NCBI GenBank assembly: GCA_947044365.1
Contig: OX345636.1
Span: 54,105,746-54,169,745 of the forward strand
Origin: Petrosia ficiformis
Lineage: Eukaryota > Porifera > Demospongiae > Haplosclerida > Petrosiidae
Direction of reading: 5' to 3'
DNA length: 64,000 bases
Part shown: positions 3,940 through 48,700 of the stretch, piece by piece
How the letters are laid out: each line of letters opens with the position of its first letter
How positions within the stretch are numbered: the first letter of the stretch is position 1
The notes under the pieces: generated by a model
What the model was told of the DNA's origin: nothing
The model's database searches: none
What the model saw: only the letters and a program-made list of their open reading frames with translations
Made by a program: the position numbers and the translations under genes

Positions 3940-3975
3940 ACTTTGGAACAGTAAAAACATATCACAAAAGAAAAC

Positions 3976-10821: not shown

Positions 10822-10934
10822 AACCACTATCTCCATCTTATAACTGATTTCAACGTGATTCACTTATTCTATCACAATAATTGCTTTTTTTGATTATTAA
10901 AATATTAACGTATACTGATAATTAGAATTTGAAA

Positions 10935-15694: not shown

Positions 15695-16234
15695 ATGTCT
15701 GATCTAACTCCTGTTCCAACACTCAGTGAGTTTGCGGAGGAGGTTGGTAAGGAGCCACAATGGTTCTCTCTGGGTGTTCATCTCAACTTAGCCCACGATG
15801 ATCTGAAAAGGATTGAAAATCAATACAGTTGTCAAGGAACTAATCGCTGTGCTGCTGAACTATTTATATGTTATGAAAAGAACAAGAAGCCATGCTGGAA
15901 GACTATCGCTGGAGCTTTTGAAAAGATTGGAGATCATAATCATGCAGGTCAGATAAGAGATAAGTATTGTAATTTATTTGAACAGCTTTTAAGTACTCAA
16001 AAGGATGACAATCGCGAAGGCACTCCCAACAATATTGAAGACCTAGAATATAATTCAGCTGGTGGTATCCTTGATGTAGCCCGCAACACATCATTATCTT
16101 CAGGGTATGAAACAGAACCAAATCTACTACAAAGGAAGGGTGTGATCAGCTGGCTAAGTATAGTTATGAATATACTTATTTTGCCCACTAAAATAGCCAA
16201 AAATCTGGCTAAACTCTTGACGAACGCTATATAG
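15695..16234 (+). CDS. Death-domain protein, right copy
   Basis: The 179-residue frame starts MSDLTPVPTLSEFAEEVGKE. Its ATG follows a TTTTTAATGTAG acceptor 17 bases upstream, so the leader is probably spliced. A Death domain fills residues about 8-95, with the conserved Trp in KPCWKTIAGAF and the helix-6 stretch GQIRDKYCNLFEQLL. A polar linker follows. From about residue 142 the frame runs into the family A MITE, so the last 35 or so residues (ending LAKLLTNAI) are transposon-derived, or the exon is normally spliced before them. There is no NACHT domain nearby on this strand. It may be a stand-alone adaptor or a fragment of an NLR. Confidence 0.8.
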   Translation: MSDLTPVPTLSEFAEEVGKEPQWFSLGVHLNLAHDDLKRIENQYSCQGTNRCAAELFICYEKNKKPCWKTIAGAFEKIGDHNHAGQIRDKYCNLFEQLLSTQKDDNREGTPNNIEDLEYNSAGGILDVARNTSLSSGYETEPNLLQRKGVISWLSIVMNILILPTKIAKNLAKLLTNAI

Positions 16235-25071: not shown

Positions 25072-25494
25072 GTACTGTGTCACTACCTCCCATACCTAAA
25101 AGAGGTCATTGTTGTCATACTTAAAACGACACACAAAATATTGCCATTTAATTTTATAGTTTTGGAGGTGGTGATGCTACTCCATTGGAGTTGAAGTATT
25201 TTAGGATATTACTATGTAAGTTCCTTTCAGATAAAATAACTGTGTTTATAGCCGATACATCAGGTTACATTAACTCACTATTAAGCAATTGATGTAGATG
25301 TTCGTAACCTAATGCTCCTTCACACTTGCAAAAATTAACTATTAAATCACATTTTAAAGAGTGTAATTCTGAACAATGAAATATATTTACAGTATAAATG
25401 AAATAAGCAACAAAAACAAAAACAAAAACAGCCTATAAATGAATCATGTACAATGTATGTACATATGTTATTGTATATTTCTTATTAATGATTT

Positions 25495-26338
25495 TCAGCA
25501 GCTGCTGGACATCACATGCTGAGGAGGGGGAGGAGCAGTAGGACTAACTGGTATTTGAGGGGCACCAAGATAAGGAGCGGGAAGATTATTTGAACAGCCT
25601 ATTCCAGTATGACTAACTGGTATTTGAGGGGCACCAAGATAAGGAGCGGGAAGATGATTTGAACAGCCTATTGCAGTATGACTAACTGGTACTTGAGGAA
25701 CACCAAGATAAGGAGCGGGAAGATTATTTGAACAGCCTATTCCAGTATGACTAACTGGTATTTGAGGGGCACCAAGATAAGGAGCGGGAAGATGATTTGA
25801 ACAGCCTATTGCAGTATGGCTAAGTGGTACTTGAGGAACACCAAGATAAGATGATTTGAACAGCTTATTCCAGTATGACTAACTGGTACTTGAGGAACAC
25901 CAAGATAAGGAGCGGGAAGATGGTTTGAACAAAAAAGATGAGGTACCTGAGGTGGATAAAAAGTCAAAATCTTTTGATTTTCCTCTTTCTTCTTTTGTAT
26001 TTCGTGCTCCTCTCTTTCAAGTTCTCGTCTCTTTCTCCTCAATTTTCGTCATCAAACTTTCTTTTTAGACTATTCCATTCCTGTCTCCTCCTTCTTTCTT
26101 CCTTCCTTTGGTAGTAGTCTCTCCTCCTTTTCTCTTGTTCTTTTTCTCTTCTATTTTTTTCTTCCTGGTATTGTTGTTGCTTCTTTTTGTCTTCTCTTTT
26201 TTTTGTATCTTCTTTTTCAAGTTCTTTCAGTTTCTGCTCTTTTCTTGACTTCTCTTCTTCCTCTTTTCTCAGCTTCTCTTGCTTTAATTTCTGCTCTTCT
26301 ACTTTCATGTTCTCTTCCTTTGACTCACTACTTCCCAT
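25495..26338 (-). pseudogene. N-myristoyl-type coiled-coil protein, right copy (7-base deletion)
   Basis: The start MGSSESKEENMKVEE and the coiled coil match the left copy almost exactly. After KRKFDDEN, seven bases (GAAAAAT in the left copy) are missing, giving an immediate TGA at about 26041. Beyond the deletion the reading resumes in another frame, RRKRRELEREEHEIQKKK .. PPQVPHLFCSNHLPAPYLG, in the correct frame across the T-run that is shifted on the left. The repeat region has mixed unit types (GAPQIPVSHT and GVPQVPVSHT), and one unit near 25850 is shortened so that the frame fails again. The tail ..MSSSC is kept. Neither arm therefore holds an intact gene. Confidence 0.75.
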
Positions 26339-27224
26339 GTTTTCTTTTGTGATATTTTTTTACTGTTCCAAAGTTATTTATACTTGCCTCTTACCCAAGA
26401 CCCTCCCTTGCCCTTGATTTCACAGGGATTCAACCTGCCTTTTCTGCAGTGAGCCTTGCAGGACTAACCAGAGGTGGTCAAAATGTACAAAAGACCTCCC
26501 ATTGCATAATTGTGTACTTGAACCTGTCCTTTCCAGTTGTGTACACCACCTTATGTGATGTGTTTGCATGTTCCAAGGTTCCTTAACTGCTGGTGAGAAA
26601 GATTATATGGTTAATGGTTAATGATTAATGCATTAGACATTTCCACCTTTATTGTTGTAGTTGTACCTTGTGTTTCAGAAATATTAAAAATAAATACATA
26701 CACCATTTTTGGATCACAGCGAAAATAGTCAACTTCTGCTCATGTGTAATTTCTTACACATAAAATACATGTACAGGTACACATGTATGTCAAATTCCAT
26801 TTACTTACATTGCTCTGCAGTATTCAAAATTCTTTGCCTTTCAATTTGGGAAAAAAATGGTCAACTATCACATGACTGTACTAATTCAAGTGTTGATAGT
26901 GACTTGGAAATTATTTCACTGAGTGTTACATGTACATCATTTCTAATTATATTAATAATGATTTACCATAGAGAATAATTAAGCAGGGAAAAATAGACGT
27001 GAAATTTCACAAATCAACTTTTAACTGTGAATTTTTTCCCCCACCAAACTTGTCATCAACTACGCAAGGGTGTTTCTAATTGCATGCTAGTGCTATTAAA
27101 AAGTGTCTATACTACTATACCTAAAAGAATGCCAGCCAGTGAATGAACTAGAGATCTTCCTGAGCTTGTAAAATGTTCCTGGAATTGCAGCTTCTACTGT
27201 ACTTTACATACATTGACACTTCAT

Positions 27225-27420
27225 TCCCTTTCAAAAACATGTTCACAACCTCTCTCTATTCTATTTTGAGAGGGAAATGTCCACAGCTTTTGCCCAAGCA
27301 ATCAAAAACCTCCATTTTCTAAAATATAATTTTACTTGTATGGACTAACGTGAGCTGATTGGGCATCATATATTTGATGCCCGAAACTACTCAATATTAC
27401 AGTTCCCAAAATGCGTCACG
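27225..27420 (-). pseudogene. RecQ-like helicase transposon remnant, right arm
   Basis: Mirror of 2925-3115, with the same GGGCATCATATATTTGATGC hairpin and the same truncated frame. Confidence 0.5.
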
Positions 27421-28726
27421 AATCAATGAATGCACTTGCAGTGCAGAATTAATGAGTGTGGGCGATAGTCACAATTTTCTTTTTTTTTTACTGCAGAATT
27501 CAAAAGTCCATCCAATGGGCTGGTCAGTGCAGTCGAATGGAATTCATAGCTACATAGTTTCATGGAATGGTGTAACAGATTTTCATTGATTTACAAATAA
27601 ATACCTAGGAGTCTTATAATAAAGTTTCCATTGCCATTTGTGTAAGTGATACATGTGTGTATGTGTCTGTCTATCTGTCTTTCTGTATGTATGTACATGT
27701 ATCATATATATATGTATCTGTAGTACAAACCGAAAGATGTTGTGTGTACTTCAATATTGTGGATTTTGTTGTATAGATATTGTACATGAAAAACGAAATA
27801 TTTTGTTTTCCCACTCTAATAATTATCATATCAAGATTGATTAAAACCCATGATATTTTTTGTGCGATGAAATAACAGATATAGTTGTATTTTCAAACAA
27901 GCTGGCTAAAACTACATGTACTTTCTTCCTGATAGTCTCAGTTCTCCAACTCAATCACTTTATGTACCATACCCTAGAATGATGATGCAACTTCTTTAAC
28001 CATATAATTGTGTAATACAAACAAATCTGTGAGAAAGCAATGTGTTGTACTGTACTACATTTGACCAAGGTTTAATATGCTTTCCTATATTTCCAGCTTA
28101 ATAAATAAGTACATGTACATGTATATGTGTAATAGTAATGCAACAATGAGTCTTCCTTCAATATCAATACACATACATTGCATGTGTACATACATATATG
28201 TATATACTGGGTATTGTCAGTAACTCTTATTAGATCTGGAGTGAATGTTAGGTGTGCACAAGACTTCCCCTTTGTGTGTTATGCCTTGGTATGCCTTAAC
28301 TTGCATGATATAAATCAAGCCTTACAGGAAGTGATCAACATGCCTCCCATTGCACATTGGTGTACTTGAACCTGTTCTTTCCAGTTGTGTACACCACCTT
28401 ATGTGATGTACTTGCAGGCTCTAATTGCTCCACCTTGGGGTCAGAAATATTATATAGTTAATGATTAATGCATTAAACATTTCCATGTGTGTTAGAAACA
28501 TTGGTTATATGATGTGAGAAATAAATACATGTGGTGGAATAGACATGAATTTTGGATGACGGCGAAAAAGGTCCATCTCTACTCATGTATGCCCTCACCA
28601 CCACACCTCCTCCTTCCCCCCCCCCATGATAAAGGGATACATGTGTATCTACATACATCTATCAACTGCCCCAAATCTTCACATACATATACATAACAGA
28701 TTATTGATAGCAATTAATAATTATTA

Positions 28727-29340
28727 CGACCATAATAACATAATTATTATAATTATACTGCATGTAAACATGAATAAATAAATAAATAAACAATGGGGGT
28801 GTAGTGAATGTTATGTAGGACCTATTAGCATACTATATAATATACATACATACATGTACATACATATATATATATATATACATGTACATGTATACGTATA
28901 TATATATATATATTCATCCATTCATTCATTCATTCATTCATTATTTGATTAATCATGTATCTATTTATACATGTACATGTAGGTATATCTGGTAACGTGT
29001 GTATTCATCATCCCTGGCCCTCAATAGGATCATACATACCCAGGTTAGCAAAATGGGTGTGGACAAACCGATTAGCAAAATGGGTGTGGTCAAACTTTAT
29101 TGGTCAAAATGCTAAATCTTAACTTATATATATTATGCTTTGGTGTCATTGTACCACTTGACACAGATAGTCTAGTGGGGTTAAAGACATCTTGGTGGGA
29201 CTGCAACCCTTCCCTCTCTCTACATACATGTATCTGAAAATGCCTATAGAGTCCTGTTTACCAATGCATCAGTAAATACATTTACTTCCAAAAACTAACT
29301 AAATGACCAATAAAATAATTTATTTGATATACAGTATGTG
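28727..29340. repeat. Segmental duplication, copy 1
   Basis: A direct duplicate of 36140-36725. Shared landmarks in order are AATTATACTGCATGTAAA, CAATGGGGGTG, GTTATGTAGGACCT, the TATA/ATTC microsatellites, CATACCCAGGTTAGCAAAAT, GGTGTCATTGTACCACTTGA and AATGCCTATA. Identity is perhaps 90 per cent with microsatellite length changes. No coding content is seen. The stretch 29341-29689 is unique and featureless. Confidence 0.85.
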
Positions 29341-29689
29341 ACTGTCATGTGACTGCTATAAAAAAATGTTTTTTTTTCCCATTGGATCAAGTGATTCTTA
29401 TGTGTTATTTCTACATGAATGAATAGACAAATGGTTGATAACTTAAAGCTTGAGGGTCAGATATGGCATGTGACGCAGCAAGAGCCCATAAACCTCCCAT
29501 TTCACATTAGTGTACTTGTTACTTGCAAAAACCACAAAGTGGTTACACTCAAGCTAGAAATATAGACAAGGACAAACCTGCATACTACAGTACAGTGGCA
29601 TACTTACATAGGAAAATTTACTGAGATTACGGGTTTCTGTCTGAAATAATTTCACGATAAAACTGCATGACCTTTTATGTACATATATA

Positions 29690-31388
29690 TGTATGACTCT
29701 ACTAGTACTGAGGGTCATACATGTAGTGCACATATGACCATACTTATACTTAGCAACATATGTGTACATGTATATGTACATATATATGTATGACTCTACT
29801 AGTACTGAGGGTCATACATGTAGTGTACATATGACCATACTTATACTTACCAACATATGCGTACATGTATATGTACATATATATGTATGACTCTACTAAT
29901 ACTGAGGGTCATACATGTAGTGCACATATGACCATACTTATACTTAGCAACATATGTGTACATGTATATGTACATATATATGTATGACTCTACTAGTACT
30001 GAGGGTCATACATGTAGTGCACATATGACCATACTTATACTTAGCAACATATGTGTACATGTATATGTACATATATATGTATGACTCTACTAGTACTGAG
30101 GGTCATACATGTAGTGCACATATGACCATACTTATACTTAGCAACATATGTGTACATGTATATTACATATATATGTATGACTCTACTAGTACTGAGGGTC
30201 ATACATGTAGTGCACATATGACCATACTTATACTTACCAACATATGCGTACATGTGTACGTACATATATATGTATGACTCTACTAGTACTGAGGGTCATA
30301 CATGTACATGTAGTGCACATATGACCATACTTATACTTACCAACATATGCGTACATGTATATGTACATATATATGTATGACTCTACTAGTACTGAGGGTC
30401 ATACATGTAGTGCACATATGACCATACCTATACTTACCAACATATGCATACATGTATATGTACATATATATGTATGACTCTACTAGTACTGAGGGTCATA
30501 CATGTAATGCACATACAACCATACTTATACTTAGCAACATATGTGTACATGTATAATTATGTACATATACATGTATATGTATGACTCTACTAGTACTGGG
30601 TGTCATACATGTAGTACACATATGACCATACTTATACTTACCAACATATGTGTACTATATGTACATATATATGTATGACTCTACTAGTACTGAGTCATAC
30701 ATGTAGTGCACATATGACCATACATATACTTAGCAACATATGTGTACATGTATATGTACATATATATGTATGACTCTACTAGGGGGGTCATACATGTAGT
30801 GCACATATGACCATACTTATACTTACCAACATATGCTTACATGTATATGTACATATATATGTATGACTCTACTAGTACTGAGGGTCATACATGTAGTGCA
30901 CATATGACCATACTTATACTTAGCAACATATGTGTACATGTATATGTACATATACATGTATATGTATGACTCTACTAGTACTGAGGGTCATACATGTAGT
31001 GCACATATGACCATACTTATACTTACCAACATATGCTTACATGTATATGTACATATATATGTATGACTCTACTAGTACTGGGTGTCATACATGTAGTGCA
31101 CATATGACCATACATATACTTAGCAACATATGTGTACATGTATATGTACATATATATGTATATGTATGACTCTACTAGTACTGAGGGTCATACATGTAGT
31201 GCACATATGACCATACTTATACTTACCAACATATGCTTACATGTATATGTACATATATATGTATGACTCTAGTAGTACTGGGTGTCATACATGTAGTGCA
31301 CATATGACCATACATATACTTAGCAACATATGTGTACATGTATATGTACATATATATGTATGACTCTACTAGTACTGAGTCATACATG
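29690..31388 (+). repeat. 90-97 bp satellite, block 2
   Basis: About 18 units in the same orientation as block 1. Units alternate between TTAGCAACATATGTGTAC and TTACCAACATATGC types, and some have ACTGGGTGTC in place of ACTGAGGGTC. The two types tend to alternate near 30900-31350, indicating a two-unit higher-order repeat. Being in the same orientation as block 1, it is not part of the inverted duplication. Confidence 0.95.
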
Positions 31389-33654
31389 TAGATTCATAGA
31401 GGATGTCCTTAAGTAATTTTTAAAAAAAAAGCAAACCCACAATAACCCTGCACACCCATAGTGTATAAGCAGCAGGTGGAGAGCCAGGAGTGTCTGAATT
31501 CAATTCAAATTTTTGAATGGGACTGAAATTAATGTCCCAAATTAAAGTCGCTAAAGTTAATACATGTACATCACAAGTATAGCTCTTTGTATTTTGCTTT
31601 CTATCAGTGTAAGTACTTATGTAGGAAGTGGTGGTCCTATGTTAGCCTCCCACTTTAGTTAATTTTTTAGCAGGTTCAACAGAATGTCTTCTTTTACGTA
31701 CATTGTACATGTAATTGTATACATTAAAATTTTACTAACTGTTAGCTACTAATGTACATGTAGTATGTGTGTTTTTTACTGCCCATACACATATATGTAC
31801 ATACATACATACATACATACATACATACATACATACGTACAAACATTAATTCAGGGAACAATCTATTAAAGAGACTACTGATGTAGTTTGCTCCTAGAAA
31901 CATCATCATGTGTTAATATTGATATTATTAATAATATTGATCCTGAAGTGGATGGGATAAATACTGACAAATCTATCTATCTGTCTGTCTGTCTATTTGT
32001 CTGTCTGTCTGTCTATTCATGTATTTTTTCTTCTCACAGAGTTTTACAGTTATCATAGTAAATCCATTTGGAGGTGCTAGATTAGGTTAAATGTCACTGT
32101 CACTATAATCATTAATATGAGTGATGATGTGAATGGAGTCTTTACTTTCCCTGCTGATAGTCTTGTGGTATGTACATTACATATGTACATTACATGTGTA
32201 CATGTGTAAATTCATGTATATAATAATTTTATTTGATGCCAATGTAATACTTAATTTCTATTACCTGTGATAATCAGATCTTGCTTTTTTGTATCCAAAT
32301 TGTTACTTGTTTTGTGTTTATTTTATTTTCATTTTTTGGTGTATTTTTTTTCATTCTAGTTTTGAAAGGCTTCTAGAAGTAAGTTTTAGTTTTGGTAGCC
32401 TAATCAATTTTTTATTAGTTTAGTTTTCCAGATTTCATTTTAGTTTGACTTACAATGCTCTATTGTACGCTTGTAAAAGGGGCCTAAAATGTCCATTACT
32501 AACCAATTCACTATGCACTTGCTGATCTGACTATGCTATTGAATACCACACTACAATAGATCTGTACATTGATTGCAAGGCTTTTATATTGTATGGTGTG
32601 TTTGGTTAATGTGTGTTTGCTTCATGCAGGATGTGTTGTTACTTATGAAGCAAAACCCATAATAACCCCACATAGCATAGGGTATAAAAGGCCTGGCTAA
32701 AGCTGGCCACTATCAAGGAGAATCAGATTCATACTCATATTTAGCAAAATTTCCCAAAATTTAATTCTTTAGCACATTATGAAACTTGTGTAAATTGTAA
32801 TAGCTGCAACCAGCTATGGAATTAAGGTGGTGCTTTGGTAATTAGCATATTCACAAGTGCTAGTATAATAGTTAGTAAACTACTGCAATGTACATATGTA
32901 TGTATTATATAGACCTGTAGGACAATGAAATAACCAATGTCTTGGGCACTTTATCTCGATAATAATATGCGATTATTAAGTGTATGGAATTATGATGGTG
33001 CTCTGGTAATTAGCATTATCCTCCATACCTAACACTGCTGGTGCATGCAGTATTAAGTCAGCATGTGCTTCTTACATGTGTTCTAGAATATACAATGTAA
33101 TTAGTCTGAATGTTTACTTCACAGCTGGCATATCACATCAGAGGTACTAATTATATATCTGTTGACTGTGGTGATAATAATGCTCTGCTGTTAACAGCTG
33201 TGGTATGTATCAATAAATTTTTGAAAAACAGTTTTGATGTAACTGATATGGAAAACCATTCCCAGATCACGCCCCACCACCTCTTCTGGCTGTCGTCTAG
33301 CAGGTACGGAGGAGAGTGATGAAGATGAATGTAAGTTGCACAATCTTACACAATAATATATTATTATAATACATACATGTACATGTACATGTGGTAGAGA
33401 TGTCCTGGTTATACTCAGTAGTACATGTAATAACTTATAGCTGTACAATGAGTAATTGAAGGCTGAGAGTCAGTCACAATTATGTATATTGTACATAACA
33501 AATACATGCATAATTATATGTACATAACTGCTATGGTCAAGATTCACATCATTACTAATAGAGTTATGAAGTATTAATTAGGAGATAGTCTTACCCGCAC
33601 TGAAAGGTAAATTCACAGCAGGAGGAACTCCATTTGACTCATTAACTCATGTAA
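31389..33654 (+). pseudogene. Repeat-rich stretch with degenerate Calx-beta exons
   Basis: After a TTCTTCTCACAG acceptor, 32042-32172 reads FTVIIVNPFGGARLG, then a frameshift, then NVTVTIIINMSDDVNGVFTF. That is a Calx-beta segment with a break in the middle. A short exon-like piece at 33125-33202 (LAYHIRGTNYISVDCGDN) has usable splice sites but no recognised family. Two AAGCAAACCCACAATA repeat copies flank these. They may be relics of the Calx-beta gene that ends at 25071. Confidence 0.4.
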
Positions 33655-34790
33655 TACATATACATGTACATATACATGTATGTGTATGTTGCTAAGTATA
33701 AGTATGGTCATATGTGCACTATGTGCACTACATGTATGATCCTCAGTACTAGTAGAGTAATACATATACATGTACATATACATATATGTGTATGTTGCTA
33801 AGTATAAGTATGGTCATATGTGCACTACATGTATGACCCTCAGTACTAGTAGAGTTATACATATACATACATATACATGTATGTGTATGTTGCTAAGTAT
33901 AAGTATGGTCATATGTGCACTACATGTATGACCCTCAGTACTAGTAGAGTTATACATATACATACATATACATGTATGTGTATGTTGCTAAGTATAAGTA
34001 TGGTCATATGTGCACTATGTGCACTACATGTATGATCCTCAGTACTAGTAGAGTAATACATATACATGTACATATACATGTATGTTGCTAAGTATAAGTA
34101 TGGTCATATGTGCACTACATGTATGACCCTCAGTACTAGTAGAGTTATACATATACATACATATACATGTATGTGTATGTTGCTAAGTATAAGTATGGTC
34201 ATATGTGCACTATGTGCACTACATGTATGATCCTCAGTACTAGTAGAGTAATACATATACATGTACATATACATGTATGTTGCTTAGTATATATAAGTAT
34301 GGTCATATGTGCACTACATGTATGACCCTCAGTACTAGTAGAGTCATATATACATATTTATATGTAAATATACATGTAAACATAATTATGTTGCTAATTA
34401 TATGTATGGTCATATGTGCATATACATGTGCATATACATGTACACATGTGTATAAGTATGATCATACATGTACATGTATGTGCAATACAAGTATGACCCT
34501 TAGTACTAGTAGAGTCATACATATATACGTATGCATATACACATATGTTGCTAAGTATAAGTATGGTCATACATGTACATTTCTGTGCACTACATGTATG
34601 ACTCTCAGTACTAGTACATATATACATGTATGTACATATACATGTACATATATGTTGCTAAGTATAAGTATGGTCATATGTACACTACATGTATGATCCT
34701 CAGTACTAGTAGAGTTATACATATATATGTACATATACATGTAAGCATATGTTGGTAAGTACATGTATAATTATGGTCATACCCGAGTGT
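33655..34790 (-). repeat. 90-97 bp satellite, block 3 (inverted)
   Basis: About eleven to twelve units of the same satellite on the opposite strand (CCTCAGTACTAGTAGAGT). Several have a duplicated ATGTGCACT. The last units near 34380-34620 are enlarged and scrambled. Confidence 0.95.
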
Positions 34791-35043
34791 AAATAGAAAC
34801 AGGATCCCGCGAGTTCTATGCAATTTACCGTATATGAGGTATACTGACTATACTAGACACGAAAGAAAAAAGAAACCTTACAGATGATGAAGGCAGTGGT
34901 AGCTTTTCTGATATAGTTGATGCAGCCAGTTGCTTGCGGTTGATTGGAAAGTAGTATATCTCTTATACTGGAGGTACGTAATTACTCTATTTACATAGTG
35001 TCAATCTGTCCAAAATAACAGTGTATTATTGCATTGTGAATTT

Positions 35044-35125
35044 GGGATACACTGTGCTGATGAGACCCAATAGGTCGAAACAATCTGATCAGTGTATGTA
35101 TGTTCTGATTGTCCATGGTTTGCCC
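35044..35125 (+). ncRNA. Type I hammerhead ribozyme, copy 1
   Basis: Core CTGATGA at 35057-35063. Stem II GACC/GGTC (35064-35067, 35073-35076) closes a CAATA loop. GAAA is at 35077-35080. Stem III CAATC (35081-35085) pairs with GATTG (35107-35111). The cleavage site U-C is at 35112-35113. Stem I ACTGTG (35051-35056) pairs with CATGGT (35114-35119) using two G-U pairs, followed by an internal loop and an outer GGG/CCC. All invariant core nucleotides of the family are present. Stem III has a long 21-base loop. Open ends at stem I make it type I, the form usually linked with retroelements in animals. Confidence 0.88.
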
Positions 35126-35165
35126 TGAAAATGTCACATGTACACAAAATCAGTATCTACAAATA

Positions 35166-35847
35166 ATTCCGACATGAGTCCTTAAAGTGCTTGAAAGCAC
35201 TTTCAGCATATTTTTAGCTACAAGCACTGACTAAATTGTGCTTGTGCTTGCATTTAAGCACATTATAGCACAAAGGCTTGAAGTGCTTTATACAATATTA
35301 TAAATTTTTAATCAATACTGGTAATCAGTAAGTGTAAATTGTACAAAGGACCAATTCAGCAGTTCTATTCACACTAATTCAGCTGCCATATCACATTTGG
35401 AAATAATTTCTTTGACAGCTGCTATTTTCACACTTTGAGACTGCTTTTAGGCTAAAATGGCTGAGAAAAAAAAGCTACCTACTGTTTTAATAACCCTCAG
35501 TCTGTGGAAGGCATCTTTTAAGGCCATATGTAAACAGATGAGACCATATCTGGATCTACTAAAGTTTCAACTAACTGAATGAACCACATGGTATATATAC
35601 AGTACTAGTAGTACACTATGTAGACTAGTCTAGTAGCAGTAATTGAGTACTAAAATTTACAAAAATTCACATCAGTTGATTTTATGATATATTTTCTGTC
35701 ACATTGTTTTCTTCATAAACTGTCATCCTCTGAAGCTAGGAGTATATATTTGGTCAAAAAGTGCTTGTGTTTGTGCTTCAAGCCCTTAATTTGAAAGTGC
35801 TTGAAATTGTGCTTCAAGCACTTTACTAAGTGCTTGCCCCATGTCTG
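35166..35847. mobile_element. MITE with 10-bp flanking repeats
   Basis: TCTACAAATA stands at 35156-35165 and again at 35848-35857. The enclosed 682 bases begin near GACATGAGTCCTTAAAGTGC and end GCACTTTACTAAGTGCTTGC then CCCATGTC, giving imperfect inverted ends. The interior has runs of GTGCTTGAAGCAC-like palindromes. It is non-coding. The flank 35858-36139 is unassigned. Confidence 0.55.
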
Positions 35848-36139
35848 TCTACAAATAGATTCAGAAGTTTTTTGTGTATGGGCCCATATAATGTAGTGTG
35901 TTCACCATTGGGAATATACATTAATCAAAGAGGTAATGCTGTCAGTGGCCCAGAGAGAGAAGTGGCAAATATCAACTTCAATACTGTGCTATATGAGCTT
36001 GTATATGCTTGCCTATGTAAATTTCCACTTTACCCAAAGCTTGGTCTGATTGAATAGTCAGTGGTTCTGGTTCAGCTACGGTCATGTTGTTTCCTAGAAA
36101 AAGAGTATCTGTTTTTCTGTGGACTTCATTTAGTCATCA

Positions 36140-36725
36140 TTATTATAAACATAATTATTATAATTATACTGCATGTAAAAACGAATAATAAATAAATAAA
36201 CAATGGGGGTGGAGTGAATGTTATGTAGGACCTGTTAGCATACTATATAATATACATACATATACATACATACATGTACATACATATATATATATATATA
36301 CATGTACATATATATATATATATCCGTTCATTCATCCATACATTCCATTATTTGATTAATCTGGTAACTTGTGTATTCCCCGTCCCTGGCCCTCAATAGG
36401 ACCATACATACCCAGGTTAGCAAAATGCATATGGGTGAGGACAATTGATTAGCAAATTGGGTGTGGTCAAACTTTATTGGTCAAAATTCTAAATCTCAAC
36501 TTACATATACATGTATACTTTGGTGTCATTGTACCACTTGACACGGATAGTTTAGCGGAATTAAAGACATCTTGGTGGAATTGCAACCCTTCCCTCTCTA
36601 CATACATGTACATGTATCTGAAAATGCCTATATAGTCCTGTTTACCAATGCATCATGTAATAATATAAACTAACTAAATGGGCCATAAAATAATTTATTT
36701 GATATACTGCTATAATAAAATTATG
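36140..36725. repeat. Segmental duplication, copy 2
   Basis: A direct copy of 28727-29340, shorter at the TATA/ATTC microsatellites and with TAGCGGAATT in place of TAGTGGGGTT. Confidence 0.85.
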
Positions 36726-38029
36726 ATTGCTTCCCCATGGGTTTGATGTATGTTTATATATATATATATATATATATATAATTATACACATGTATGTTTG
36801 TGGCCACTTACGTGAGGAATGGGTGGGTGTTTGTTAGTTCAAGAAAATTAAACCTTGTGTGTGTGTGAATCTTTAGGAAATAAACAGTTTGATGAAAAGC
36901 TAATTACATGTATCCTATATTAAGTTTATCTGTGTCACATGGAACTGCAATTACACCCTAACTTGAGAATCATTGACTGGTTTGTGCTGACTCAGACAGT
37001 CAGTCATGTGATTATTTATCCCACTATTTGTGGCAAATATGCAAGCTTGCAATCAAAGAGTTGCTTCCTAACCACTTTGAACCCTATTCTAAGTGAACCA
37101 CATAATTATATTCATGAGACATTATTGTTTTTTTAAATGCAGGGCCATCCCTATGAATATAAAACTGCAGCTAATACTAAACTCTTCTTATAGCAGAGAA
37201 ACAGTAAAAAGAATCTTTAGCAAGTTAAGTAATAAGTTATTGAGTTTCAGGCATGAGAAAGTCACTATTTAGAACCTTCTGTGCACTAAGACCTATTCAG
37301 GCTCCAGTTTCAGGTACTTAGAAAGGTAGAGACACTAGTACCACCAGCAATGATGGAATACCTTTTTTCTCAATAATTATATCTTGTTTAGTTTGACTAT
37401 TATGAATTTATTATACATCCAATGGGAATGACTCAGACTAACATAGTTATTTCTCCCCACAGTACGTCAAAAGAATACCAATTGTACTCTACTCAGGATT
37501 ATGTAAACCACAAGTCTAAATTTGTTACAGCTCCTAATACAGGGATTTTATTGCATAAAATCATACTCCCGAGTTATTCATTGGCTAATATCCGATTGAA
37601 AATGGAAATGTGCAAGCAACAATTTAAAGTCGAGTGGACTTGTTTGGCAAATAGGGAGTTCTTACAGTAGTGTGACTTCCTCTTTGCAATAACAATTTTG
37701 ATTATTCTTTTATGAGTGAAACAAAACAGCTGTCTTTTGCAGTTAGTTCACAAAAAAATTATTTTTCTTAATATTTCATTTTTTAAATTTTACAACAAAA
37801 AAAGACAGTGAGAATTTTATCAGAAAGTAAGTAGCACAAAATTTATTTTATATAAAAATTTAAAAGAGAATGAGAATTTAGAAAGTAGCACAAAATTTTA
37901 TATGATAATTTCACAACCAAACAATCATTGAAGTAGCAGAAATTTTACAGCCAAAAAAAACTATCGGAATGGCCCGATTACTTTATGTATTAAAGAAATG
38001 GTGCCCGTTCCACCCGGTTCTATACTTAC
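36726..38029. other. AT-rich stretch without a recognisable gene
   Basis: Short frames at 36939-37136 and 37422-37670 show no domain, no splice signature and no repeat relation that I can see. Low-complexity A/T runs lie between 37680 and 37960. Confidence 0.5.
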
Positions 38030-40031
38030 GTACATCCCAGCCGAGACATTATTACGATTACACTCAAAACTCAAATCAGCTAATACCAGCAGTTTGCTTT
38101 CAAAGCTAGAATGCTGATGCTGCTTCATCTTCTGGTACAACCCATCAATTTTCTGTTGATTTCTACTACTAAATACTAAGCAATGCCTTCCTCCGGCTTC
38201 TGCAATTGCCAAGGCATCTAACCAGTTAACAAGGTTTACTTTGGAGATAGCAGGAGTTGCACCTACATATACACAACAATTATAAGCTACATGCAATTGT
38301 TAGTGGTATTAATGGAGTAAATATATATATACTTTCTTACCTCGCTGTAATGCTGGCTGAATATTAGCCACTGATCGAAAACTGAGTATGTTATGTATAT
38401 CAGCCTCACTGGCAAAAAGAATAACAATGCCAGGACCTTCTGATTCATAATCCGATTCTAATTGTTCCATAGTGAGTTTGGATTTTTTGACTAAAAGAGA
38501 AATAAAATGAATTTCAAACAATGTCTAGGCACAAAGAAATGATTCTTGACTACTAGTGTATTCATTGATTAATATATATATATATAATATATATACCATG
38601 GCTTCGAGGTGTATCAATCATCCTAGCCCCAATATATAATATGTAATATATAAACCATAGCTTTGAAGTGTATTCACCAAATATACACTGATTTGATTTC
38701 TATACACCTAATAGTATCACACAAATTTTGGGGTGGTTGCAGTGTTTTTTAAATGAAAGTCGTCTTCCTGACAATCATGTTCGAATAAGTGACCCCAGTA
38801 CATGTGGTCCTGGAGCACTTGTTTCGTGAACTGCACAGCAAGGGTATCAGAGCAGTGAGGCAGCAATCAGAAATTATTACAGCCACGGAAGAGTCTCTTC
38901 TCTGGGAGAAAAGTGAAATGGGAACCCATTCCCCCTCTGCGTTATTGAATAGTTTGTTTTTTTTATAACGGACTAAATTTTGTTTTACGAGGTGGAGATG
39001 AATTGATGAAAGGCATGGTATTTAAGAATATGCAGGGCTGTACAATTAACATTAACATACAAGGACAGTGACCTTGACTCAGTATCATTTCAAGTTTTAT
39101 GGTATATATAAAGTGGTGAATATATACACCTGTGGGTTGATATACTGAGGATTCTGTAGTTTTTTTGGGGGGGGATTGTTCAGAGTCAGAAATAACAGAT
39201 TAATATTGTCTGGACAACAATTTGACTGGTCATTTTTTAAAATTGGATGTCATTGTAAAGAACTCACCTTAAAATGAGAGAAGTGTTTGACATATACAGC
39301 ATAACGTGAAAACTTTATGCAATTTTTACATATATATATTAATATTGTGATTGTATGGTACTTACAGGTACAAGTTAACATACAGTATATGACTTTAAAA
39401 TGAAACTGTTGTCTATGAAACTGATCGTACTGTTGATTTCCCTTCCATTCAAACAGAGCGTGTGTAAAAGCGTGAGATTGTGTGCATGTCACATTAGTGG
39501 TCAGCAATATGGCAGAAAACTTCGACTACACAGTGCACGAACTGAAGAAATCAACAGTACCATAATTATACTATAATTATATTGCTGCGTTTAATTAATG
39601 TGGGCGTGGTTAACAAACCAAATGGCCAGATTTTAGTTTACTGCTGGATTTTCTCAGAAGAATTCAGATCTAAACAAAGTTGACTTTCCAGAGGGTTAAG
39701 GCTTTGTCCAACTTCGCCTGCAGTAACAGTTGTTTATTCCTTGTGGAAATAGCAAAACGAACGTCTTGACAAAGATGGGCATGACCACAAAAAACGCTCG
39801 AGTATTCTCGGCCTCCTGGGCTTCATAGATGTTAGGAAAGCTTGAATCTTGCCTCGTTAGCATAAAGACTGGTGAGTATGTAGACAAATTCGCATGATGA
39901 TATGATGAGTGGGGCTAACAATTATACTCAATCATAAAGTCCTTGCATGCAGTAATTTGCTCGGTCATTGTCCTGACATGCGCGGAAAATGGCCGATGGC
40001 CGCCTGTTATTTCTGACTCTGATTGTTATAC

Positions 40032-40071
<40 letters not shown>

Positions 40072-40346
40072 GTTTTTTTTTATATACCACCTGCAGTTTT
40101 AATTATGGGTGACATAATCAATCAGTATAATTATGTATATATATATATATATATATATATTATTTTGTTACTAACCAATTGGTTCTTCGATTGGTTCTTT
40201 GATTGGTTCTTCGATTGGTTCATCAGGTTTATCTGTTGCCATTTTCTATAGTAAGAACAGAGAGATAAATACTACACAGAACTAGAAGCAAAGGCAAATC
40301 TACTATAACTATAATATAACCTTAACATTCACAACATCACTAGAAT

Positions 40347-40391
<45 letters not shown>

Positions 40392-41159
40392 GAACATATG
40401 TACATCAATCTACATACACACACAAATATAGAGATTACATACAACATTACATGTATGTGTATACATGTATATTTACCTCTTCTCCAACTATTAATTTTGT
40501 TGAAGGTACAAATATTTTGATTCCAGTCAGTTTTATAACTTTAACATTCACAATACCACTAGAATGAGAGAGAGAGAGAGAGAGAGAGAGGAACATATGT
40601 ACATCAATCTACATACACACACAAATATAGAGATTACATACAACATTACATGTATGTGTATACATGTATATTTACCTCTTCAGCTCTTCTCCAACTATTA
40701 ATTTTGTTGAAGGTACAAATATTTTGATTCCAGTCAGTTTTATAACTTTAACATTCACAATACTACTAGAATGAGAGAGAGAGAGAGAGAGAGAGAGGAA
40801 CATATGTACATCAATCTACATACACACACAAATATAGAGATTACATACAACATTACATGTATGTGTATACATGTATATTTACCTCTTCTCCAACTATTAA
40901 TTTTGTTGAAGGTACAAATATTTTGATTCCAGTCAGTTTTATAACTTTAACATTCACAATACCACTAGAATATAAGAGAGAGAGAGAGGAACATATGTAC
41001 ATCAATCTACATACACACACAAATATAGAGATTACATACAACATTACATGTATGTGTATACATGTATATTTACCTCTTCTCCAACTATTAATTTTGTTGA
41101 AGGTACAAATATTTTGATTCCAGTCAGTTTTATAACTTTAACATTCACAATACCACTAG

Positions 41160-41215
<56 letters not shown>

Positions 41216-41530
41216 AGAGAGATAGTAAAACAGACTATGATATGCATATACAAGAAAATTAGAAAACAAATTAGAAACCAAAAAATAGCTATAAAGTAAC
41301 TATGAGAGGATATACTGTTGTAGAGATACCCACTAACGATAGAGAGAGAGAGAGTGATTATGATACGCATGCATAAGACAATTGGAAAACTGAGGATTCT
41401 ATACAGTAACTATAACACACAAGGAACTAACCAAAGTCTTCAGAGAGACTGCTCAGACTGGTAGTGCTTGAGAGATTCAGAAAGAGACGAGTAATAATAA
41501 CCTTTTCAATAACAACGCATGGTTATTACG
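38030..41530 (-). CDS. Multi-exon gene of unknown function
   Basis: On the minus strand, a probable 5' exon at about 41520-41430 ends TTTG|GTTAGTTCC. Next comes the tandem exon array (41155-40318). An exon at 40245-40176 opens at ATG 40242 as MATDKPDEPIEEPIKEPIEE and ends G|GTTAGTAAC. Further exons at 38490-38341 (VKKSKLTMEQLESDYESEGP .. ALQRG) and 38262-38030 (ATPAISKVNLVNWLDALAIA .. SFECNRNNVSAGMY) join in phase through the split Gly codon at G|GTAAG / TAG|GT. The C-terminal part alternates hydrophobic strands and helices (GIVILFASEAD, GRHCLVFSS, LLVLADLSFEC), as in an alpha/beta signalling fold, but I cannot name it. The 3' end was not found. Whether the array belongs to the same transcript is uncertain. 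Confidence 0.5.
40318..41155 (-). repeat. Tandem array of a duplicated exon with its intron
   Basis: Four complete copies lie at 41155-41074, 40964-40883, 40765-40676 and 40558-40477, plus a stub at 40339-40318, with a period of about 200 bases. Each has a ..TCTAG acceptor, encodes SGIVNVKVIKLTGIKIFVPS then TKLIVGEE, and ends GAAGAG|GTAAATATAC. Introns hold (GAGA)n and ACATGTATACACATACATG. Three copies are 82 bases, not a multiple of three, while the 40765-40676 copy is 90 bases through an extra CTGAAGAG and also starts TAG instead of TGG. Only that copy could be included without shifting frame. Confidence 0.85.
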
Positions 41531-41976
41531 ACGTACACCTCTTTATATGTCAACGTGCAATGGAAGTATCATCATGTGAGTAATTGACCAATGAGATATA
41601 TGTACACAGCTCTATCACACCTTATTTAATTATTATTTAATTAATTAATATTTATTATTATTATTTATTTTTTGGATTTAATTAATAAAATTAATTATAG
41701 ACAATGCTACAGCCTTATATATTATATCTTATACCCATACATGGCCAAGTAGATCACTACATTGAATCTTTATAATTGCACACAATTCGCAATTTTTATA
41801 TTGTCAAAGAATGTCCTATCAGGCACACCACATTGACATATAAAATTGCTGCTGGCCTGAATTTTTAAATGGCTAGTAGGAGTTGCTAGGTGTGAGGGTT
41901 TAAATTAGTATTGACTAATGATATTCACACAGTATCCATCAAATTTCATGCAATCAGATGTGTTATAACTTTGTAA

Positions 41977-42058
41977 GGGCAACTGTGGACAATCTGAATT
42001 ATATGTACACTGATCAGATTGTTTCGACCTATTGGGTCTCATCAGCACAGTGTATCCC
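41977..42058 (-). ncRNA. Type I hammerhead ribozyme, copy 2 (fully paired)
   Basis: On the minus strand: stem I ACTGTG (42051-42046) pairs perfectly with CACAGT (41987-41982). Core CTGATGA is 42045-42039. Stem II GACC/GGTC with loop CAATA is 42038-42026. GAAA is 42025-42022. Stem III CAATCTGA (42021-42014) pairs perfectly over 8 bases with TCAGATTG (41997-41990). The cleavage dinucleotide UC is 41989-41988. An internal loop ATAC is followed by GGG (42058-42056) pairing CCC (41979-41977). The 16-base stem III loop differs from copy 1 while the stems are preserved, a pattern expected of a selected structure. The upstream flank ATTGTGAATTTGGGATAC is shared with copy 1. Confidence 0.93.
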
Positions 42059-42429
42059 AAATTCACAATACATTGTGCAGAATGATGCAAAATGTATGTT
42101 ATAATTATAATAATTATTATGAAAAGTTTCTATGTAGTACCATGTCTAGTACCTCCAAAGGTACTGGTAATAGATACTACTAGAGCTTTCAGAATTGGAC
42201 TGAAAAACTGAAATACTTACTCTATGTTTCAGATGAGTCAGAAGAGATATAACTTTACCATTTCTAGTACAGTCAGCACCTCCAGATTTTAAGTAGAATG
42301 TGCTATAGTAAATGCAGGTAGACAACATACATACAACACATGTATATACATACATAATTATACATATGTGACAGTTATTTTCATTATAATATATATACAA
42401 GAATAATAAAAACATTTTTAATAAAAATG

Positions 42430-42560
42430 GAGAATGATGTAGGGACGTCAAAACCCAAAAAGCATGCAAACAAGGTTGGGAGGTTAACGTAGGACCTAAA
42501 ATTAAACAAACCACTTCCATATAACCCTACATAAGTACTTACACCGCTGTAAAGCAAAAT
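42430..42560. mobile_element. ACATAAGTAC MITE, partial copy
   Basis: It contains CAAAACCCAAAAAGCATGC, CCACTTCCATATAACCCTAC and ATAAGTAC, matching the fuller copy at 50640-50985. Confidence 0.6.
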
Positions 42561-42660
42561 AAAAAGAGCTGTACTTATTTCCATTGTTTTTCTGAATGGT
42601 GGACGATTTGTGAATATTTTATGTAGATTGTTATGAGGCTTGATCATCATTGAAGGTCAG

Positions 42661-43800
42661 ACTTTTGTATAATTACATCCATTATTTATGAATTGATTAT
42701 CATTCTTTTTCACTTACAGCTTTGCCACAAGAAGTAGTGCTAGTCTCTGTGTCAACCATTGGCATTCCAGTGCTTATCATAGTATATAATATTATATTAT
42801 CAGTATATCATGGTTTTAATATTATGCTCATTATTTTAAGAGTGAATTTGCTCACAACTTTATTACTATTCTTATGATTCCAACGTAGCAGCAGTTTCAG
42901 TAAACAGCTTTCATGTTCTGTGGACACAAATGCGCATGAGCAATTAATTCCACGTGGCTAAATTAATGAATACACCTATAAAAATGGCATCCAATTTGAG
43001 ATCAAATCTTCGCCGTCGTTGAGACTGTCTTCTTTCATAGCATCTGAAGATATCATCTTGATACTTGTACACCAGAATTTTACAAAGAATGCAATTGGAA
43101 TGGTGATAGAATCATTGTGATAGTTCGACAAACAAAAAAATGATTTGTCTGGAAAATAATAATAATATGAAGCAGATTTTGCCAGTTTTGCTACTCGGCG
43201 GTTCTCTACCTTAACGACAATCTTTGGCCATCTAGAAGATGTTGGTAGTCATAAAAACACTAGATATGAATAGGTATGTGTGTATTAAAGCTTATCTGTA
43301 TATATTACCCGAGATTTCAGCTCATCACTTGCAATTGAAATGTATGGGCAGCCATTTTTTTTTCGTGCCATCCCTACATAGAGAGTACTACCGTACTCTC
43401 TGATAATTAATTGAATATTCAACTAATTCATTTCTATGCTCAGAAACAAAGGACATTAAATATGAGTTATCAGCTTATTATAGAGATATAAAACTGTAAA
43501 CAACTATAGACTACATGATGAAGTACAATGACTTAATAATAATATAAGAGTCTAATAGTATATGTTGGTAGACACAGGTCTTACATGCATGCATACATAC
43601 ATGCATAGTGCATACATACATTCACTCACTACTTATACATGTATCTGCATACATGGAGCAAAACCACACATTAAAAACAAACATTAATCATACACACACA
43701 CACAAATTCCTGTGGCTACGAGATTAAGTCAACACATGTTGACCTTAAATGTCTAACCTGCACATGCCTGCCTTAATGACCCTGTGTTATTGTTTGACAG
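42661..43800. other. Intergenic, nothing assigned
   Basis: An AT-rich stretch with a small CATACATG microsatellite near 43580-43640. No exon or repeat family that I recognise. Confidence 0.45.
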
Positions 43801-45150
43801 CAGTTTGATGCGCTTGTGGAGAACAGGAGCATTTGAGGAGCTTTATATGCCTGAGGAAGATATTGATGTTGATGTAAGTTTGTATGCATAATTATGCATG
43901 TGTAGTATAATTAAGTTTTCATCTATTATTAATCTATTATTAATTATTATGTTGTCAACAAAAGTGCCAATAATATTTATAATTTAAGTGTTCAAATTTT
44001 ATTTTTCAGCTTACTTAACCTTTATAAAGAAAAAGATCACCATGCCCTCAGCAAGGATGTTGATGTTGCCATTTGGCAAGACTATAGAGCGTATAAGTGT
44101 CTAGATCCAGTTGTGGATGCAACTGACTTTATCGTAATTAATAACCAGCAACATGATGAATTTGATGAGTTCTAGAAAACAGAGATTATGTCATACATCA
44201 GCTACCTCAAAATGAATGAAATTCTACAGCTTTATCTCCAACATAGACCACACCTAGTAGCATCAGTTATAACAAGATATGAACAAACTTACCTTCAGCT
44301 TTCGAGTACACAAGTTGATGAGCTATGCAAATGGGTGTACAAACTGAGGGACCAATTTGTAGCCAAAGGAGCAGAAGTGTTCAAAGCTGAGGTGGAAGAA
44401 GTAAAGCAGGTATATATTATAAAAGTAAAACAAAATAATTAATTTATTTATAGCAATTATGCAATACAGAATGATGAACCTCAAGCCACAGCTTTAACCT
44501 CATTAGAAGATAAGGTTTGTTGACTTGGCAAAAAAAAGTATGAAATATTTATAATTGTTTTAGGTAAACAATGACAAACAAATCTCACCATTATTATCAT
44601 CATCACCTGAGGTATAATTATAATTATGCTCCTATGCTCTTAAAATCATGTACTAAACACCATGTAGGCTCTCAAAAGAACGAAGTGCAAGCTAGTTGGG
44701 AAAGAAACAACATCGACATCAGGTATAGTGTTGTGGCCAAACAATTATATCATCTATAGAAATCTATAATTTCTCTTGAAAGGTGCTAAACGTAAAAGAT
44801 GTGGACAGTGTAATGGGTGCAAACAGAATGATTCTGGAGAATGTCTTTTCTGTAAAGATAAACCTAAATTTGGTGGTGAAGGTAAAAAGAAGCAGTGTTG
44901 TGTATTAAGGAAGTGCCAGGCTTTGGCTAGTTCTACATATCCACTACCATCCCTTAATCATACAATTCCATCCTCGTTCAAGGTTTTAACCCAGGAAACA
45001 CCACCTACATCAAGTTTGTCAGCAATTGGGCGTGCTGTGAATAAAATAAAAGCAGATGGTAATTGTTTTTTCCGTGCAGTATCTTTCCTCATAGGTGGTT
45101 CTGAGCAAACAAATGACCCCACTGCATATTGGCATCAGCTACAACCATAA
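43801..45150 (+). pseudogene. CXXC zinc finger plus truncated OTU-like domain
   Basis: The exon starting at 44783 reads GAKRKRCGQCNGCKQNDSGE .. CLFCKDKPKFGGEGKKKQCC .. LRKC. That is a complete CXXC zinc finger, including the KFGG and KKKQ signatures of CpG-binding proteins such as CFP1, MLL and DNMT1. About 45 residues later, RAVNKIKADGNCFFRAVSFL matches the catalytic Asp/Cys start of an OTU cysteine protease, but the frame ends 20 residues on at 45150 with no catalytic His. Upstream exon-like pieces with splice sites (43801-43875, 44012-44173, 44188-44408, 44661-44717) encode unrecognised sequence, e.g. SLMRLWRTGAFEELYMPEED and LSKDVDVAIWQDYRAYK. OTU and zinc-finger modules both occur in transposons, so this may be a transposon gene relic rather than a host gene. 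Confidence 0.6.
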
Positions 45151-45159
45151 TTTCGGGTT

Positions 45160-45710
45160 TTATATCAAGGAAAATGTCTCAGCCACCCACCAGATATCTA
45201 GGCAGGGCCACTGAACCTACAATTGCATGGGCATTGAGTGGGCTTAAAATTCCCCCTGTGCTCAATATTTAGGGCAAAGGGTGGCCAGAAAACTATCAAC
45301 TTGTTCAGGCATTTTCATGGGCTTATCCTTGACACCAATTACAAATATTTACATTGCTCTGTAATGCTAGGAACACACTCCAAACCACGTAGGGGTCAAA
45401 TCTCACATATATGTGACATCAGTCCTCTGAGGCATAATTAATGAACACACTTCGAACCATGTAGGTGTCAAATGTCACATATATGTGACATCAGAATATA
45501 ATATGTAGTCCATAAGAGTTAGCTTAAAGAATAGTTTTTCACTGTATATAATCAGCAATGATGGTTGTCATATAACACATAACACTAATTCTGTTTTTCT
45601 GGTCTATATATATAAATTTCTTTGGCACTATAACTATAATAACTATTAATAATAATATTTATTATTTTAACAATAATAATGATAGTCCCAAATTGGTATT
45701 GTTAATAAAC
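45160..45710. other. Spacer with a short direct repeat
   Basis: The block GTAGGGGTCAAATCTCACAT then ATATGTGACATCAG (about 45389-45422) is repeated about 70 bases on as GTAGGTGTCAAATGTCACAT ... . CACATATATGTG is palindromic. No gene seen. Confidence 0.5.
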
Positions 45711-45711
45711 G

Positions 45712-48700
45712 ATGTCTATATCATCCATAGGTATGACAAATACATCTATCATACAACAAGACTCACTTGAACATATACATCCAGTATCAGATTATAGAAA
45801 CAAATCCAGGATTGAACAAAAATTAAATATGTCATTTCCAATTTATGTGTATCCCCATGAAATACCTCAACATAGCTCTATACCTATTTCAACAATAGCT
45901 GAATCCACTCCTCTACAATCGTCTTGTAGTGTAGACAGGACTCATATTGTTTCTGCTCCTCATGAGGTAAGGGTATATCAAAACTACCTTAAAGCTCGTT
46001 ACCAGAGAAACCAATTTCCCACATATTTCAAACAACCTTCTCCTTCAATCAAAACATTCATAAATCTAGAGTTAGTACACAAGAAGAGAGAAAATAAACA
46101 AGAAAGAATTCAGTCAATGACAACCAAACTTCATGGAGATGTGACAAAATATAAGAACGACAGAACATCTATTGATATGAAGCAAATTGGTGAAGTAGGT
46201 GAAGATCAAAAACTTCCTCGTAATGTACTTATTGAAGGTGATCCTGGTGTGGGGAAGACTACTTTAGTATGGGAGATGTGTAAAGAATGGGGAGAAGGTA
46301 CACTACTACAACAATGGGATCTTGTAGTACTAGTACAACTTCGTGATAAGAATATTAGAAGTGCTACACATTTGCGTGATTTCTTTAAGTTTTCTCCAGA
46401 TTCACCAGTAAATGAGATTGTTTATCAACACATTCGTGACACATTTGGAGAACGAGTGCTGATAATTTTTGATGGTTATGATGAATTATCAAAATTGCAG
46501 AAGACTGAAACTTCAATATTTAATCAAATACTTGAGAGCACATTACTTCCATCTGCATCAGTAATAGTGACAAGTCGTCCTGTGGCAACTGCAACTCTTC
46601 CTGATGCTTTCAAGGATCACACACAACAACGCATTGAAGTTGTGGGATTTACAAAGAGAGATATTGACAAGTATATTAAATGTAAATTTTCTAACAATTC
46701 AGATTTATTACAAAGTTTCAAAGAGTACATATCATCTCACCAGTTCATCTTGACGCTTATGTATGTTCCTCTTCATTGTGCAATAGTAACTGACTTGTAT
46801 CAGATGTACTGGAGGAAAGGAAAGAAAGATTTTGCACCAAAGACCATCACACAACTCTATACTTGCTTTCTTCATTTGCTACTAGAACGATATCTTGACA
46901 ATAATTCTGTCTACGGACCACAGAGACTTCGTATCGAAATGTTATCCAAGTTGCCACAAGATGTGTATGATGATTTGTTGAAGCTTGCTCAACTGGCTGC
47001 TAAAGGTATTGAAGAGAAAGAGTATGTATTTGATGACCTCACCTATAACACTCTAGGTCTAATGCAGAGTGTTGATGATAATGAATCACATAACTCTATG
47101 TCAACATCATATAGTTTCCTTCATCTAACATTACAGGAGTATCTTGCTGCTCTCTACTGGTCCACACTCCCATCTGAAAATACATCTCATTTGTTCTTAG
47201 AATCATCATTGTTACCAGTATCAACATTTATCAAAAGAAAAGGTGAATTTCACAATGTTCACTTGCCATCATTACTTTTTTATGCTGGTTTAACGAAAGT
47301 TAAAAAAACACCATTAGAAGAAATCCTGTCAAACAATCATTCTTGTACTTACAATTTTCTTAGTTTATTGTTTGAATCACAAAACATAGAATATATTTCA
47401 TCAGTATTAACAGATAGGACTTATGAAATGAAGATAAAATCACACATGGAATCATATGTCACTGGATATGGTATTGCTAACAGTTCTTCTACAGCATTGT
47501 GGGAAATTGATATCAAAGAAACACGATTCATTAAAACACTAATCAATGGTGTTAATCATGCCACAAGTAGTGATGGAGGGAGTATATCTAAATTAAACAT
47601 TAGTGGAGGAGTTTTAAATTCAAAACATGTAATATTATCTCAACTTCAGCGATACATGACAAAGCTCACAGATCTTGATTTGGTTTTGAATGATATTTCT
47701 CGTGATAACATTGAAAAACAGTTTTTTGGATTCTGTCCTGCATTGAAAAACATTTGTATTTACACAAAAAAGAGACTACCATCTCTAAATGTTTTCCCAA
47801 AAATAACTAGTCTTACTCTTAAAGATGCTGTTGTAGATGATGCAGTGAGTACTGGACTAACAAATTCTATAACTCTAAAATCATTGAAGTTTCATAAATG
47901 TAAAATTGTAATTGATAGACAAGATGTATTGACAGAGAATAGTACATTAGGAAGTTTCACTTCTGATATTGCCCAACCATTAGCTGAAGAACTACATTAT
48001 AATACACAAATAGAATCATTAATGCTAAAACTTATCTCAGACTCTAAAGTTTTAAATACATTGATGTTTGGACTAATACAAAACAAGTCATTGTCATCAT
48101 TAGAACTGGCCAGTGTCAAACTGGATGTTGAAGGAGGCAGAACACTAAGAGATGTAATGAGAGAGGATACTACCTTAAGAAAAATGAAAATATCTTTTTC
48201 CATTAATTCTATTGATGTTGCTCAACCATTAGCCGAAGGATTACAGTACAACACAGGACTTCATACACTATCATTACATTACATAGATGCTAGTGGTGTA
48301 ATGAAAATATTGATTGAAGGACTATCATGTAATAATACAGTTCAAACCTTAGTGTTACATTGTATTAGTATGACTATTGAAGACTATCGACTACTGAATA
48401 ATAGTATTCTGAAAAAGAATCAAACATTGAAAAGTATTGTCATCTATATTAGAGGTTATCCTGATCACCTTACTGAAGAATTATCGATGGTTTATCAGTA
48501 AATATTGGATTAAAGAATATTGTCATATACTCTTCTAATCTTTCCTGTGATGATGCTAAGATGTTAGCTGACAGTGTAATGAAGAACATGAATAATATAA
48601 TCAATATAACATTACCTGACAAGTGTTCACAAGATCTGTCAGTATATTCATATCCTAAAAACAGAGTCAAGTACACGAGTGAAGGTATGTAGTTTAGTGT

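Follow-up and report, generated by a model that had tools for sequence, protein, structure and literature searches.

What carries the hammerhead ribozyme at 41977-42058 on the minus strand of the window, the whole 64,000-nucleotide stretch of the Petrosia ficiformis genome analysed here? According to the available parts of PMC7229834 and PMC6431247, animal hammerheads are mostly tied to RNA-based elements, namely retrozymes, Penelope-like elements and Terminons. PMC7229834 assigns most type I forms to small tandem retrozymes, and minimal ones to Penelope-like elements and to Terminons; the occurrence of hammerheads in Terminons is also recorded by PMC6431247. A conserved, covarying hammerhead that sits symmetrically in a DNA element would need another explanation, and would raise the question of what use a self-cutting RNA is to a DNA transposon.

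Read on the minus strand, the 5' half of 41977-42058 is GGG-AUAC-ACUGUG-CUGAUGA-GACC-CAAUA-GGUC-GAAA-CAAUCUGA-loop, and the 3' half, after the loop, is UCAGAUUG-UC-CACAGU-UG-CCC. This reading bears out the original prediction of an intact type I hammerhead with stems I, II and III paired in full (6 of 6, 4 of 4 and 8 of 8), an exact core, UC at the cleavage site (C17 is 41988, after which cleavage is predicted) and an outer GGG/CCC helix beyond an internal loop. Stems, coordinates and cleavage position are all correct, and the observation of a real hammerhead is confirmed. The copy, assigned below to class A (stem I ACTGTG/CACAGT), has the defining exact CUGAUGA and GAAA core, three helices and open helix I. 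Its minimum-energy fold is the hammerhead structure (-23.8 kcal/mol, z -2.4), and 4 of 200 shuffled sequences folded equally well or better. A contact between loop I and loop II is plausible from the sequence, the AUAC side of the internal loop being nearly invariant among copies.

The type I assignment rests on this core and these helices and not on an Rfam gathering threshold. In the Rfam search that had been proposed as a check, family matches were indeed found but below threshold, with none at gathering score across the whole window. Within 41000-43000 the matches are Hammerhead_HH9 (RF02275; 29.5 bits against a gathering score of 52, E 8.3e-5) and RAGATH-1-hammerhead (RF03152; 34.6 bits against 56.3, E 0.0018), two families with the same core and helices as the window ribozyme; the HH9 alignment also spans the helix I internal loop and loop II. 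Hammerhead_1 (RF00163) gave 11 matches in the whole genome at E <= 0.001, all short of the 34-bit cut-off (best 33.4 bits) and none of them a window copy; it had no match in any of 14 control genomes. A model built from the present ribozyme family (R1) scores 41977-42058 (-) at 115.8 bits, by construction, and a second window copy at 35044-35124 (+) at 101.3 bits.

The original prediction had treated the ribozyme as standing alone, with no carrier to be recognised. That part does not stand, as the genome (191 Mb in 29 contigs searched) contains a family of many copies, copies that face each other in pairs, and elements with inverted repeats and a hAT exon; the earlier interpretation as a whole is partly supported. 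The exact 25-nt core has 220 copies (97 forward, 123 reverse) and a core pattern with stem II left free has 233 matches (101 and 132), with no match for the reversed control of either pattern. Stem-loop II is unchanged in 93 of the first 100 places listed for the stem-II-free pattern, all of which lie on contig C1 between 0.77 and 32.7 Mb; the first 100 places were likewise listed for the exact core. The exact core has no match in IMG/VR or GTDB contigs, both of which may omit the source genome and those near it.

Fetched loci, chosen by the exact core, yielded 54 distinct copies in two classes: class A (stem I ACTGTG, n = 38, including a chimeric window copy at 35057) and class B (ACCATG, n = 16). 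Likeness between the classes is mostly confined to about -30 to +80 around the core. For 37 class A copies, the mean identity between pairs is 0.979 for the outer helix together with the 5' strand of stem I, 0.940 and 0.993 for the two strands of stem III, and 0.992 for the cleavage site with the 3' strand of stem I. Loop III, at 0.833, and the flanks, at 0.680 and 0.486, vary more. The corresponding values for 14 class B copies are 0.944, 0.948 and 0.848, and 0.932, against 0.728 in loop III and 0.449 and 0.459 in the flanks. Core identity is 1.000 because loci were picked by the core. In a covariation analysis of 22 ribozyme sequences out of 34 distinct ones, hammerhead pairing is kept in 98.0% of cells versus 95.4% in shuffles, a value matched by none of 500 shuffles. 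Two pairs of stem I are changed on both sides, in 15 cells, and stem I covaries between class A and class B. Two of the five covariation measures give no support: 101 of 500 shuffles reach the observed count of pairs with changes on both sides, and 112 reach that of further pair types. The outer helix occurs as GGG/CCC, GAG/CTC and CGG/CCG, and so is compensated in two ways; one row breaks it, and the partner ribozymes at two loci (L088 and L089) have an unmatched stem I. The near-invariant ribozyme parts, diverged flanks and compensatory changes indicate, at the level of sequence comparison, that the hammerhead is under selection.

Some copies have their own local history. Six class A copies at C1:0.77-1.58 Mb (L039-L042, L045 and L046) share one strand, at spacings of 0.1-0.6 Mb, and are 89-97% alike across long flanks in the comparisons run, forming a separate dispersed subfamily. 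Four ribozyme copies at C2:5.36-5.42 Mb (L009-L012) are 100% alike over 121 bp and spaced 17.2-17.7 kb apart, probably as a tandem segmental duplication that took in the ribozyme.

Among the 100 listed places, 25 neighbours lie within 20 kb of each other, where 6.1 in any orientation are expected for random uniform places (maximum 15 in 2000 trials). Of these, 22 are convergent (+ then -), 0.57-15.7 kb apart, and one each is ++, -- and -+. Thus, the ribozymes typically face each other and read towards one another, into the stretch that separates them. The window holds such a pair (cores 35057 + and 42045-42022 -). Its second member, at 35044-35124 (+), had been overlooked; it is in the class B position with a chimeric stem I, pairing ACTGTG of class A with CATGGT of class B, two of the pairs being G-U. 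The minimum-energy fold of this copy is not the hammerhead, so it is possibly weak. The two ribozymes lie in an inverted-repeat block, 35030-35134 (+) being 89% identical to 41968-42072 (-) over 106 bp (42072-41968).

The window holds two head-to-head arms of a giant family member. In the right arm, the block 25083-28480 (+) is an inverted repeat (95%) of its mirror block 1845-5215 (-) in the left arm, and the repeated unit reaches left through 26500-33600 toward a palindrome centre near 14230. The ribozymes of the left arm lie outside the window, at C1:54091157 (+, class A) and C1:54096327 (-, class B). Between the right-arm ribozymes, 35135-40300 has at least three near-full copies elsewhere, at 95-97% identity. 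The repeated unit also includes a tandem array (97 bp) on the outward side of class B (33651-34782, +) and, on the inward side of class A, a tandem array whose unit of roughly 199 bp has GA runs (40367-41187); in other copies the repeated unit extends at least 3.5 kb outward of class A. At C1:27361336-27387911 (+), one arm is present with its blocks in order and cores at 27378605 (+) and 27383979 (-); other placeable arms have a single orientation among the matches listed. The outward flank of class A in the window carries a separate nested repeat of about 1.0 kb with many copies elsewhere (42397-43405). Position 43776, with its TTAA, was considered as the element terminus and rejected: other copies run past it, so it marks where the window copy is cut, and a probable host exon comes next, at about 43799.

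Mirror-image ORFs at 12308-12799 (-) and 15662-16234 (+) flank the palindrome centre and have weak Death-domain matches (0.0011-0.0013, below cut-off). The region 9415-12307 contains two ORFs, one with an integrase core (11069-12142; PF24764, 1.2e-19) and one that is RING-like (9953-10822), and has near-full copies on contigs C8 and C1. The integrase was rejected as the carrier's enzyme: the region is missing from the mirror arm, and is therefore taken as a nested insertion. One of the near-full copies, at C1:24659050, has a ribozyme core at a distance of about 8 kb (C1:24668215), and a link between the two is possible.

An internal gene appears to lie between the facing ribozymes of the window, with a probable exon at 38341-38490 (-) and a probable last exon, stop included, at 37961-38262 (-), their limits being drawn from splice consensus. 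Both are on the strand of the class A ribozyme, which is thus upstream of and in sense with the gene; ORFs lie on the class A strand also in a smaller family member at C1:5122-5133 kb. C1:29355217-29355922 encodes the peptides of the two exons (38490-38341 and 38262-37961) at 74% and 84% identity, respectively; in C1:28864010-28865894 the reading frame is disrupted. Neither exon has a Pfam match above cut-off, and a protein search with the internal exon returned three matches, none with a function.

The smaller family member (C1:~5122441-5133352) has class A ribozymes at both ends and similarity that fades on both sides. Its inverted repeats are made of pieces of 90-98% identity and one of 77%, with length differences between the sides of about 1.0 and 1.7 kb. 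The outer part encodes a peptide that matches the C-terminal dimerisation domain of hAT transposases (Dimer_Tnp_hAT, PF05699; 8.3e-7, 29.2 bits, cut-off 21.4). This exon is present in 15 fetched loci, and a search of the whole genome at E <= 0.001 gives 72 matches; the weakest of these probably come from unrelated hAT genes. Of 28 exon places on C1 below 32.75 Mb, 22 have a listed core within 10 kb (random places: 5.3%), and in all 22 the exon is outward of the ribozyme and on the opposite strand; the remaining six have no listed ribozyme within 10 kb. As some copies were counted as two pieces, the 22 places correspond to 18 element ends, at which the nearest ribozyme is class A in 11 (read or matched), class B in one (C1:2184455, at a distance of 8.6-9.7 kb) and of unread class in six. 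The right arm of the window ends before reaching the exon.

The exon may be what remains of the element's own transposase. Many copies contain stops; beyond this last exon neither a catalytic domain nor a complete transposase was found, and ORFs between the ends of the smaller member have no significant Pfam match. A palindrome, ATACATGTAT, beside both of its ends fits either an 8-bp target duplication or a further inverted repeat. As neither a complete transposase nor an unambiguous target duplication was found, the relation to hAT is probable but not proven. Small pairs examined for ends on C13, C2 and C1 have no clean end, their shared sequence extending outward piecewise. On the outward side of a class A ribozyme, at roughly 320 bp, the smaller member also contains an insert of about 1 kb with a reverse transcriptase-like peptide (L054:1001-1177 (-), C1:5126920-5127096). 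The peptide resembles the YxDD motif of reverse transcriptases and has no Pfam match.

We consider it an evenly balanced proposition that the window ribozyme is a selected, probably self-cleaving type I hammerhead in the inverted ends of a DNA-transposon-like, hAT-related element family. With hAT transposons (PF05699) the family shares the C-terminal dimerisation exon, inverted ends and possibly an 8-bp duplication; it differs in its very long inverted repeats, its giant size and the remaining transposase, which was not found. The W-elements of Schistosoma, in the available part of PMC8490949, are likewise repetitive DNA with hammerheads of shown function, and one piece is DNA-transposon-like; however, they are described there as satellite or SINE-like, with no complete transposase ORF reported and the transposon match not tied to the ribozyme. 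Among the titles and abstract openings listed, in a search with most subscription journals outside its scope, none reports a hammerhead carried by a hAT element or by any other DNA transposon with inverted repeats. Within that literature, the ribozyme is of a known kind and the carrier and facing arrangement appear to be new.

A more specific and distinctly tentative proposal is that this class II (cut-and-paste) family uses matched, inward-reading hammerheads in its inverted ends to cut transcripts entering on either strand, thereby blocking silencing duplexes and setting the 5' ends of internal-gene RNA. With both ribozymes oriented inward, RNA transcribed into the element from either side would encounter one of them in sense and only afterwards the antisense of its partner, and would be cut at the first. 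The cut would strip the 5' leader and leave a 5'-OH RNA running into the element, starting with CACAGU (class A) or CAUGGU (class B). Cleavage would part the complementary ends of read-through RNA, which then could not snap back into one duplex, and would fix the 5' end of the internal-gene RNA. Self-cleavage, the resulting RNAs and the benefit to the element are all predictions from sequence, and the read-through idea is directly checkable from RNA ends.

A rather unlikely alternative is that the carrier is not itself a transposon, and that host segmental duplications, palindromic and rich in immune genes, have spread an old ribozyme locus with the hAT exon as a relic. The large units (at least 27 kb), their Death-domain ORFs and varying extent, the tandem-like spacing of L009-L012 at 17-18 kb, and the 3601-bp, 100% identical copy of 42100-45700 at C1:53996326-53999926, which takes in host flank, are in keeping with such an origin. 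However, copies are scattered across many contigs, facing pairs 0.57-15.7 kb apart recur in differing surroundings, and the C1:5122-5133 kb member has inverted ends.

That the carrier is a Penelope-like or Terminon retroelement, with its reverse transcriptase lost or outside the scan, appears improbable. The peptide beside a class A ribozyme in L054, which resembles a reverse transcriptase motif and has no Pfam match, would suit it, but the opposite end of the C1:5122-5133 kb member lacks the insert. No reverse transcriptase, Penelope-like or other retroelement enzyme was found among the ORFs scanned, a subset taken from parts of members. As far as the available parts of PMC7229834 and PMC6431247 go, these elements are known carriers of type I hammerheads and have them in repeats of large mobile elements, as here; however, they combine reverse transcriptase with minimal ribozymes (PMC7229834), whereas the window family combines a hAT exon with a full ribozyme whose stem III is long (8 bp), and its pairs are facing, not head-to-tail.

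It is quite improbable that the ribozymes are inactive relics: the coding parts have decayed and stem I is damaged or chimeric in some copies, but the functional positions are near invariant against diverging flanks and carry compensatory changes. Least probable is insertion of a retrozyme-like small circular-RNA element into these repeats. In the available part of PMC7229834, metazoan non-LTR retrozymes are the main home of canonical type I hammerheads in animals; they share with the family that canonical ribozyme, a low G+C content and many genomic copies, and the block shared around the family's core (-27 to +78) is small and modular. Retrozymes, however, consist of units of 150-450 bp repeated directly in tandem (PMC7229834), whereas no such units were found in flanks of about 1.5 kb per side or among the 100 listed places, the sole double match in those flanks is an inverted pair (L047), and close neighbours are convergent, in facing pairs 0.57-15.7 kb apart.

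Returning to the window, the copy at C1:53996326-53999926 (L098), identical to 42100-45700, includes the probable host exon and carries a ribozyme core, and its inward sequence, beyond window position 41965, differs from that of the window. Further outward, an ORF at 44770-45150 (+) encodes a CXXC zinc finger (2.3e-12) and, after it, a weak likeness to otubain that stays below cut-off (0.0033). It is followed by a 930-aa NACHT-LRR ORF at 45709-48501 (+; PF05729, 3.8e-23), which has 1422 relatives at E <= 1e-20.
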